Shown here piece after piece: positions 58,851 to 62,099 of a DNA stretch of 64,000 bases. The first letter of the stretch is position 1. Each line of letters begins with the position of its first letter. The stretch is taken from contig REEC01000133.1 of assembly GCA_007695285.1 (NCBI GenBank), forward strand, positions 58,076 to 122,075. Direction: 5' to 3'. The notes beneath the pieces were generated by a model, which made no database searches, had not been told where the DNA came from, and saw only the letters and a list, made by a program, of their open reading frames with translations. This DNA is from Spirochaetaceae bacterium. Lineage in GTDB: Bacteria > Spirochaetota > Spirochaetia > DSM-27196 > PXBQ01. Position numbers and translations under genes: made by a program.

Positions 58851-59792
58851 TTATTTTGTTTCTGCTGTTGATTCTTCGAATAGCCACGTGCTCAAGTACC
58901 GCTCCCCGGTGTCGCACACGATCGTCACGATCGTCTTTCCTTCGTTCTCGCTCTTCTTCGCCTCGTGAATCGCGGCCCAGACGTTCGCTCCCGCCGAAAC
59001 ACCGCACAGAATCCCTTCTTCGCGCGCAAGCGCGCGACTCATCGTCGTAGCGTCGTCGGCCGAGACCAGAACGATATCGTCGATAAGCGATCGATCGAGG
59101 ACCGCCGGAATAAACCCGGCACCGATGCCCTGAATCCGGTGCGGCCCGGGCTTTCCACCCGAAAGAACCGGGGACGCGTCGGGCTCGACCGCGACCGCGC
59201 GCACCGAAGGTTTCAGTTCCTTTAGCCGCTCGGCGACCCCGGTAATTGTTCCGCCGGTTCCGACCGCCGCGACAAAAACATCGACGGTGCCGTCGGTATC
59301 ACGCCAGATTTCCTCGGCCGTCGTCTCGCGGTGTACGCGCGGATTTGCCGCATTCTCGAACTGCCGCGCCATGTACGCTCCGGGAGTCTTCCTGACGATT
59401 TCTTCCGCCGCGGAAACCGCACCGGTCATACCTTCGTGCCCGGGCGTTAAAACCAGCTCCGCGCCGAGCGCCGAGAGCAGCCGCCTCCGTTCAAGACTCA
59501 TCGTGTCCGGCATCGTCAGGATCACGCGGTACCCTTTGACCGCACCCACGTACGCGAGCGCTATCCCGGTGTTGCCGCTCGTCGCCTCGACGATCACCGC
59601 CCCCGGTTTGATTCGACCTTCGCGCTCCGCGGTCTCGATCATCGCGAGTCCGATTCGGTCCTTTACGCTCGAAAGGGGGTTATGCGACTCGAGCTTCACG
59701 AGAACCGTCGCCGCGCACCCGGCGGCGACACGGTTCAGTCTGAGTAACGGGGTGTTCCCAATAAGATCGATAATCGTGTCGTGAACGCGCAT
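58851..59792 (-). CDS. cysK: Cysteine synthase A (O-acetylserine sulfhydrylase)
   Basis: This 313-residue PLP enzyme begins [22 protein letters not shown] and has Lys44 in [49 protein letters not shown] near 70, PLP-phosphate loop [15 protein letters not shown] near 175 and GISSGA-like [11 protein letters not shown] near 264. It makes cysteine from O-acetylserine and sulfide. Paired with metY it gives both sulfide-fixing routes. A direct repeat upstream may be the control site. Confidence 0.97.
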
Positions 59793-59859: not shown

Positions 59860-59896
59860 TTGAGTTTATGATACGACAAAATTCACGTGCACGTCA

Positions 59897-59988
59897 AGAT
59901 AACTGCAACGAAGCCTGGTGAAAAAGGTCTAAATCGCGGCAGAACATCTGTTTCCCGGCCGTTTCACCAGGCTTCGTTGCAGTTAGAT
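59897..59988. mobile_element. MITE-like element with perfect 23-bp terminal inverted repeats
   Basis: Bases 59901-59923 (starting AACTGCAACGAAGCCTGGTG) are the exact reverse complement of 59962-59984. The 84-bp unit is flanked on both sides by AGAT (59897-59900 and 59985-59988), which looks like a 4-bp target-site duplication. The 38-bp interior has no reading frame. It lies between the parC stop and the cysK promoter. A non-autonomous transposon-derived element is the best reading; a long RNA hairpin with another role is the alternative. Confidence 0.65.
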
Positions 59989-59996
59989 CGCCTGGT

Positions 59997-62099
59997 TCAG
60001 CTACCTTTCGGCTTTTTTTTCGTCCGAGACGTCCCGGACGCGGAGGTTGGGCCGGGCTTCTGCTTTGTCGCGCGTTTCGGTGCCTTTTTTGGTGTGTCTT
60101 TCGCCGCACTTTTGGACGCGGTGTTGGATGTCGTCTTTGTCGTCGCGGCCTTTGGCTTTGTCTTGTTTGGCGAGGACGCCGCGGCGGCGCCGCCGGTTGG
60201 GGCGAAATTCCCCAAACGCGTCTCTTTCGTCGACAACCGCACGCCGGCCGCTTTGACATTCTTCACGAGGTACTCATCGACCACGAAACGCTCTTCGAGC
60301 ACGCGCAGCAACGGCTTCGGTTTGTACTTCACGACCGCGTCGACGTTCTCGCGCGTCGTGACCTTCAAAACGGAACATTTGTCGGGCACGATCGTGTACG
60401 CTTTGCCGAGGATGTACTGTTCGATCCGACACCGTTTCAGATACGGGAGCTTTTTCTCATTCAGGTACAGAACCGAGAACACTTTCTGCGACAGCGAGTC
60501 CTTGTCCGCGTGGCCACACGACAGCATTCCCGTATCGACAAAGAGCTTCTCGGGAGCATTGATCACCGAGTACACGCCGGACTTGCGCATCACGAGAATC
60601 CGGTCGTACGGCGAGACGGCGAACAACGCCTGTCCACTCGAAACACCGTACCCGAGGTACCCGGTATTCCCGTCGTACCGCAGAGTGAGATTGCGCTCGG
60701 CGACTTCCTTGACGTCGACACGGTCGAACGAGATGATCTCGGTCCGCCGCGAGTACGAACTCGCGTTCGACTCGATGATCCCTTCGAGAAAATCGACCGC
60801 GTACGTCTCGATGTTCGCGAGATACTCGCGGATCTGCTTCAGTCGCGCGCGAATCTCCTCCATCTCTTTTTTCGCCTTGTTGATATCGTACAGCGAAATC
60901 CGCCTGATCGGGATCTTCAGCAGCCGCTCGACGTCCTCGTCGGTGACCTTTCTGCGGATCTGATCCGCGAACGGCACAAACCCGTCGATCACCGCGGTTG
61001 TGACCGCGTCCTGCGTCTCTTGTTGCTCGATGTCCTTGTAAATCCGCTCTTCGACGAAGATCCGCTCGAGCGTACGCGCGTGAAGCCGATCGTTGAGCTC
61101 TCCCCTCTCGAACTCCAACTCGGCCGTGAGGATCTGCACGAGCCGGATCGCGTGATGGCGGATGACTTCCGAGACCGTCAGAGCGACCGGCGTGCGATCC
61201 TTGATAACGAGCAGATTCACCGCGACCGACTGCTCGCAGTCGGTGTACGCGTACAACGCGTCGACGACCTCGTTCGAGTACGTGCCGCGCGCGAGTTTGA
61301 TCTCGATCTCGACCTCGTCGGTCGTGAAGTCATTGATGCCCGCGATTTTGATGCGATTCTTCCGCGCCGCGTTCTCGATCGACGTGATCAGCGACTCTGT
61401 CGTCGATCCAAACGGGAGTTCGCGAACGACGATCCGTTTTGGATCGGACGTATCGAGCTTCGCGCGGACAAGGACTTTTCCGAGTCCGTCCTGATAGTCG
61501 GAGACGTCGACGAATCCGCCGGTCTGGAAGTCCGGGAACAATTGAAACGGTTCGCCCTTGATCGCCGACGCGACGGCCGAGAGCACCTCGACGAAGTTGT
61601 GCGGGAGGATCTTCGTCGACATTCCGACCGCGATGCCTTCGGCTCCGTGAACAAGAACCACGGGGATCTTTGCGGGGAATACAACCGGTTCTTTGTTCCG
61701 GCCGTCGTACGAGTCCTCGTACTCGGTGAGCTGCGGATTGTACAGCAGATCCTTCGCGAGCTTCGTGATTCGGCACTCGATGTACCGTGCGGCCGACGCC
61801 TCGTCGCCGGTATGGATGTTCCCGAAGTTGCCCTGTTTATCGATGAAGAGGTCTTTGTTCGCTATCACGACGAGAGCGGAGTAGATCGACGCATCGCCGT
61901 GTGGATGGTACTTCATGCAGTGCCCGACGACGTTCGCGACCTTGTGGAACTTTCCGTCGTCGAGTTCAAACAGCGAATGAAGAATACGCCGCTGGACCGG
62001 CTTCAACCCGTCGTCGAGGTGAGGGATCGCGCGGTCCTTGATCACGTACGACGCGTACTCCAGAAAGTTCTGGTTGAAGAGAGTGTTCACATACGCCAT
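59997..62099 (-). CDS. parC: DNA topoisomerase IV subunit A
   Basis: This 700-residue protein begins with YASYVIKDRAIPHLDDGLKPVQRRILHSLFELDDG and KYHPHGDASIYSALV. The catalytic tyrosine is Tyr106 in ASAARYIECRI. The breakage-reunion domain runs to about 440, followed by a shortened beta-propeller-like region (about 450-625). The last 70 residues are a basic low-complexity tail (KTKPKAATTKTTSNTASKSA...RTKKKPKGS) that could bind DNA nonspecifically. Lack of the GyrA box (QRRGGKG) supports ParC. ATG overlaps the parE stop (TGATG). It decatenates chromosomes. Confidence 0.93.
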   Translation of the reverse strand: MAYVNTLFNQNFLEYASYVIKDRAIPHLDDGLKPVQRRILHSLFELDDGKFHKVANVVGHCMKYHPHGDASIYSALVVIANKDLFIDKQGNFGNIHTGDEASAARYIECRITKLAKDLLYNPQLTEYEDSYDGRNKEPVVFPAKIPVVLVHGAEGIAVGMSTKILPHNFVEVLSAVASAIKGEPFQLFPDFQTGGFVDVSDYQDGLGKVLVRAKLDTSDPKRIVVRELPFGSTTESLITSIENAARKNRIKIAGINDFTTDEVEIEIKLARGTYSNEVVDALYAYTDCEQSVAVNLLVIKDRTPVALTVSEVIRHHAIRLVQILTAELEFERGELNDRLHARTLERIFVEERIYKDIEQQETQDAVTTAVIDGFVPFADQIRRKVTDEDVERLLKIPIRRISLYDINKAKKEMEEIRARLKQIREYLANIETYAVDFLEGIIESNASSYSRRTEIISFDRVDVKEVAERNLTLRYDGNTGYLGYGVSSGQALFAVSPYDRILVMRKSGVYSVINAPEKLFVDTGMLSCGHADKDSLSQKVFSVLYLNEKKLPYLKRCRIEQYILGKAYTIVPDKCSVLKVTTRENVDAVVKYKPKPLLRVLEERFVVDEYLVKNVKAAGVRLSTKETRLGNFAPTGGAAAASSPNKTKPKAATTKTTSNTASKSAAKDTPKKAPKRATKQKPGPTSASGTSRTKKKPKGS

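Follow-up and report, generated by a model that had tools for sequence, protein, structure and literature searches.

A palindromic element between parC and cysK of a spirochaete as a probable miniature inverted-repeat transposable element

We analysed a 64,000-nucleotide stretch of a spirochaete contig (the window), in which an 84-bp palindrome between parC and cysK is very probably a miniature inverted-repeat transposable element (MITE), with the transposase of a partner insertion sequence (IS) acting in trans. This reading is supported by the many copies of the element in both orientations, by the match of its ends to those of full-length IS, by a transposase encoded in the same genome, and by the absence of the element from the locus orthologous to that of the copy in the sister species. 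The initial annotation had proposed a non-autonomous MITE on the strength of its inverted ends and a flanking AGAT duplication; dispersal in multiple copies, transposon-type ends, and the presence in relatives of a transposase gene between the same ends now support that proposal, while the AGAT duplication does not hold. What appeared as an isolated hairpin can now be assigned to a mobile family for which a candidate transposase has been identified.

The palindrome and its genomic setting

The arms of the palindrome are complementary at 24/24 bases and lie 38 nt apart. With 59901-59984 taken as its limits, the element is 84 bp long and has perfect 23-bp ends, which bears out the geometry first described for it. 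It is short and lacks coding capacity, and its arms make up 46 of the 84 bp, more than half of the whole. A 20-base core of the arm occurs twice in the window, in both cases as one of the arms, where 0 occurrences are expected by chance, and the palindrome is far beyond chance. Features of the window, the copies of the element, and the related IS and transposases are collected in Table 1.

Table 1. Features in the window, copies of the 84-bp element in the window genome, and related insertion sequences and transposases
Feature	Location	Strand	Description
parC (DNA gyrase/topoisomerase IV subunit A; GyrA/ParC type), upstream neighbour	59997..62099	-	stop at 59997
cysK-like PLP enzyme, downstream neighbour	58851..59792	-	start at 59792
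Promoter-like site for cysK, TTGACG-18-TATCAT	59868..59897	-	10/12 matches
84-bp non-autonomous palindromic element (probable MITE)	59901..59984	.	one of 12 clear genome copies
Left terminal inverted repeat, TAACTGCAACGAAGCCTGGTGAAA	59900..59923	+	first T perhaps flank
Right terminal inverted repeat	59962..59985	-	exact reverse complement of left repeat
Interior, 38 nt	59924..59961	.	related to interiors of other copies once co-oriented
Left AGAT	59897..59900	.	most likely chance match, not target-site duplication
Right AGAT	59985..59988	.	most likely chance match
Element copies	C23:12800; C31:6065; C80:4228; C84:1432 and 3441; C175:3943
Element copies	C193:17206 and 117976; C234:3695, 7764 and 10796; C258:5366		C193:117976 is the window copy
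Full IS	G006:C4:42790-44156		1367 bp, single large ORF of 410 aa; ends 21/23 and 22/23 vs consensus
Full IS	G018:C436:5188-6568		1381 bp, single large ORF of 415 aa; two inverted ends
Own-genome transposase	C84		391 aa, intact; 57% identical to G006 transposase
Own-genome transposase	C142		399 aa; 40% identical to C84 protein

The element had been placed between the parC stop codon and the regulatory region of cysK, and this placement is correct, with both genes on the minus strand. For the promoter-like site of cysK, 0.1 occurrences are expected in shuffled sequence, and its good -35 box (from 59897) begins only 3 nt downstream of the element end. The window copy probably has little local effect other than to add a stable hairpin 3′ of parC and to border on the cysK promoter.

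The RNA fold of this hairpin (-52.3 kcal/mol, z = -7.8), its position just past the parC stop, and the perfect stem of the window copy would suit a conserved structural RNA, or an element at the parC 3′ end that would act in termination or mRNA stability and be retained for its function at this site. We consider this highly unlikely, since 12 copies are dispersed beside unrelated genes in both orientations. The window element matches no Rfam family, and in the terminator search no T-run followed the hairpin, which was not called as an intrinsic terminator. Double-sided changes in the stem, at 4 cells against 2.2 expected, are equalled or exceeded in 57 of 500 shuffles. Neither compensatory changes beyond the control nor confinement to one conserved locus, the traits of a structural RNA, was found.

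A dispersed family of fixed length

The window genome (G000) is a metagenome-assembled genome (MAG) of 4.4 Mb in 283 contigs. The initial annotation had called for a search for further copies here and in relatives, which yielded 12 clear copies of 83–85 bp in this genome, plus one degenerate copy (C267:1793), and a single copy in the sister species G001. A control search of the genome with the reversed pattern gave 0 copies. By covariance model, the 84-bp form is almost confined to the window genome, apart from the G001 copy, and an independent 84-bp derivative was found in G034. Across the copies the arms are nearly invariant and the interiors align once co-oriented, and by its interior the element lies one way in eight copies of the genome and the other way in four. 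The fixed length of 83–85 bp and the fixed end points point to recognition of the ends.

These data also bear on the possibility that transposition played no part and that what multiplied, through segmental duplication or recombination, was the immobile remnant of an ancient IS. Several copies do sit on a few small contigs, the C175 and C193 copies have most of their interior in common, and duplications are lacking. The flanks of the copies are nevertheless unrelated to one another, as are the neighbouring genes, and length and end points are held constant, so that multiplication without transposition is very improbable.

Five small contigs, C234, C84, C175, C31, and C80 (L097, L095, L248, L102, and L103), together 46 kb long, carry eight of the 12 copies, a distribution that insertion at random into 4.4 Mb would not produce. 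The tetranucleotide correlation of these contigs with the window is 0.90–0.96, compared to 0.96–0.98 for 5-kb pieces of the window itself. Possible sources of the copy-rich contigs are an accessory region and a second strain within the bin, for which contamination is 6.2%.

Comparison with the sister species provides a view of mobility. The locus of the G001 copy (C520:610-692) has an orthologous place in the window genome that lacks the element; this place holds a gene missing from G001 and is therefore not a clean empty site. The G001 contig C517 begins inside parC, so it ends short of the parC-cysK site of the window copy, and a search of G001 for DNA orthologous to the surroundings of the C234 and C23 copies found none. 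One further site is occupied in both species: G000:C224:10794 (L089) is orthologous to G001:C231:1894-2152 (L080), the latter is an IS reduced to 259 bp by internal deletion, and the former has decayed further, to a remnant with a single end.

The AGAT flanks

Target-site duplications are usual in MITEs, although not universal, and DDE transposases normally leave one. The AGAT on each side of the window copy had been read as such a duplication and as a signature of transposition. Identical adjacent 4-mers flank the window copy only (1/12), with 0/11 among the other copies, and the chance of at least one such pair among 12 copies is 4.6%. Apart from the window copy, flank identity and the longest words shared between flanks resemble those of mismatched flank pairs. 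We therefore rejected AGAT as a target-site duplication, and the pair is most likely a coincidence, though at this single copy it may be a true duplication. It follows that the 84-bp family leaves no detectable 4-bp duplication, and that the AGAT pair says little in favour of transposition. No consistent flanking duplication is present across the 12 copies; since duplications are not universal in MITEs, its absence lowers the MITE claim and does not exclude it. More generally, a 4-bp "duplication" seen at a single site carries little weight until the remaining copies have been checked.

Some full-length IS do carry longer flanking direct repeats, of 11 bp in L220 and 12 bp in L225 (both G002) and 8 bp in L073 (G018). 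These repeats are set 1–3 nt off the IS ends, and mismatched pairs never reach such length. Most copies of the same IS have no such direct repeats.

A full-length insertion sequence with matching ends

The motif of the arms recurs in other genomes of the order Spirochaetales, where near-identical ends bound an IS of ∼1.37 kb in several MAGs, each with a transposase of 410–415 aa. A transposase gene enclosed by the same ends, which the initial annotation had suggested seeking, is thus found in relatives (G006, G018, and G034), with ends at 20–23/23. The IS end in G034 is identical to the 84-bp consensus (23/23), and those in G006 and G018 agree with it at 20–22/23. The left arm of the window copy itself agrees with the G034 end at 21/23 and with the G006 ends at 19–20/23. 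The 84-bp derivative of G034 has further bases inside its left end in common with the full IS of that genome, as an internal deletion of the full IS would give. The traits of a MITE found for the window element are shortness and lack of coding capacity, terminal inverted repeats, dispersal in multiple copies, and ends in common with a transposase-bearing element.

From this comparison, two 23-bp ends recognised by the transposase would flank the 38-bp non-coding interior, and a full-length IS with nearly the same ends would supply the enzyme that moves the 84-bp element in trans. The partner IS would span ∼1.35–1.40 kb and encode one transposase of ∼400 aa, whose N-terminus is predicted to form a zinc ribbon and a helix-turn-helix and whose catalytic domain would be RNase H-like. 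We infer that this transposase binds the arms to move the 84-bp unit, and that transposition brought the window copy to its present site.

Within the window genome, two members of the transposase family were found (Table 1). Upstream, the C84 IS (L095:163-1515) ends in an 84-bp palindrome where, judged from sequence, a plain inverted repeat would be expected. This copy may represent a MITE insertion at the IS end, or a palindromic form of the IS end itself. The downstream end of the C84 IS has diverged (18/23 vs consensus), so this IS may not be the mobiliser of the 84-bp family, and a better-matching IS may have been lost from, or remained unassembled in, this genome. The C142 locus (L096, G000:C142:94300-95800) is a second, diverged member of the family and sits downstream of a glutamine-synthetase-like gene; its ends read AACTGTTACGAACCTTGTAAAAA, and GGAACTGTTA is duplicated at the left one.

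The transposase family

Of 41 genomes of the order, 25 contain members of the transposase family, and two complete genomes gave 12 and 14 matches to it. In a public collection it occurs in MAGs labelled Spirochaetales, Myxococcota, Deltaproteobacteria, Eisenbacteria, Krumholzibacteriia, and Planctomycetota. Transposases L258-L292, from several phyla, share an N-terminal FxPPFCPNPxC motif and have no Pfam or NCBIfam name. Against Pfam the transposase had no match above cut-off; against NCBIfam nothing exceeded the cut-off, with weak N-terminal matches to the ISL3 and IS1 models only. A plasmid collection contained no relative of the transposase, a sequence search of the PDB returned only chance matches to zinc fingers, and our literature search found nothing on this IS group in Spirochaetes.

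Structure prediction from 19 sequences gave a mean pLDDT of 80 and a pTM of 0.82. Compared with the PDB, the predicted fold best matches the cores of retroviral integrase and MuA, and these matches are modest (best E 9e-4, TM 0.2–0.5). Nine aligned members all conserve Asp146, Asp234, and Asp282 (numbered as in the own-genome protein). The best reading is a predicted DDE-type transposase with these residues as a candidate catalytic triad.

The nature of this enzyme bears on whether the element could be a palindrome of the REP/REPIN type, spread by a tyrosine (Y1) RAYT transposase. Such palindromes would likewise be extragenic and free of duplications, and a transposase gene does adjoin one copy, at C84. 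The arms, however, match inverted repeats on both sides of the gene in the full IS, the adjacent enzyme, with its zinc ribbon and a predicted fold like that of integrases, is not a Y1 protein, and the transposases that adjoin the element or share its ends match no RAYT/Y1 family. We therefore give very little credence to a REP/REPIN origin. The AAC...GTT ends suggested an integron attC site; this identity was rejected for the window element, which is a perfect palindrome without extrahelical bases and has ends that match IS ends.

With the MITE reading preferred, it is conceivable, though we put it forward only tentatively, that the partner elements constitute an undescribed IS family, set apart here by Pfam and NCBIfam only. 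Its members would be ∼1.35–1.40 kb with a transposase of ∼400 aa, the FxPPFCPNPxC motif, an IS1/ISL3-like zinc ribbon, and a DDD-type integrase-like core. They would occur across Spirochaetota, Myxococcota, Eisenbacteria, and Planctomycetota and insert without a fixed-length duplication directly at the ends, some full copies having 8–12 bp repeats offset by 1–3 bases. If so, the 84-bp elements would be the first described MITEs of that family. The transposase group is widespread and unnamed in Pfam and NCBIfam, and pipelines relying on both probably miss the enzyme and its miniatures.

Comparison with known systems

The transposase N-terminus weakly matches the ISL3 model (E down to 5e-7) and the IS1 model (E down to 1e-4), and the partner, like IS1/IS1595 and ISL3 elements, is bounded by terminal inverted repeats, at ∼1.4 kb. 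The scores of 27 bits against a cut-off of 180 for ISL3 and 20 against 100 for IS1 place the partner transposase outside both families by NCBIfam cut-off, and the matches stop before the catalytic domain. The partner IS also lacks the consistent 8–9 bp duplication of IS1/IS1595 and ISL3.

REP/REPIN sequences with their RAYT resemble the 84-bp family as many-copy extragenic palindromes without duplications. The enzyme here is instead predicted to be integrase-like, not Y1, and the arms are the true ends of a full IS.

A further close likeness is to the prokaryotic MITEs, of which MITEAba12, Correia elements, and RUP are reviewed examples (PMC10969869). The 84-bp family differs in lacking a recognisable fixed-length duplication and in having palindromic arms that exceed half of its length, while, like those MITEs, it is short, non-coding, multicopy, and extragenic, with terminal inverted repeats whose ends are those of a transposase-supplying IS.
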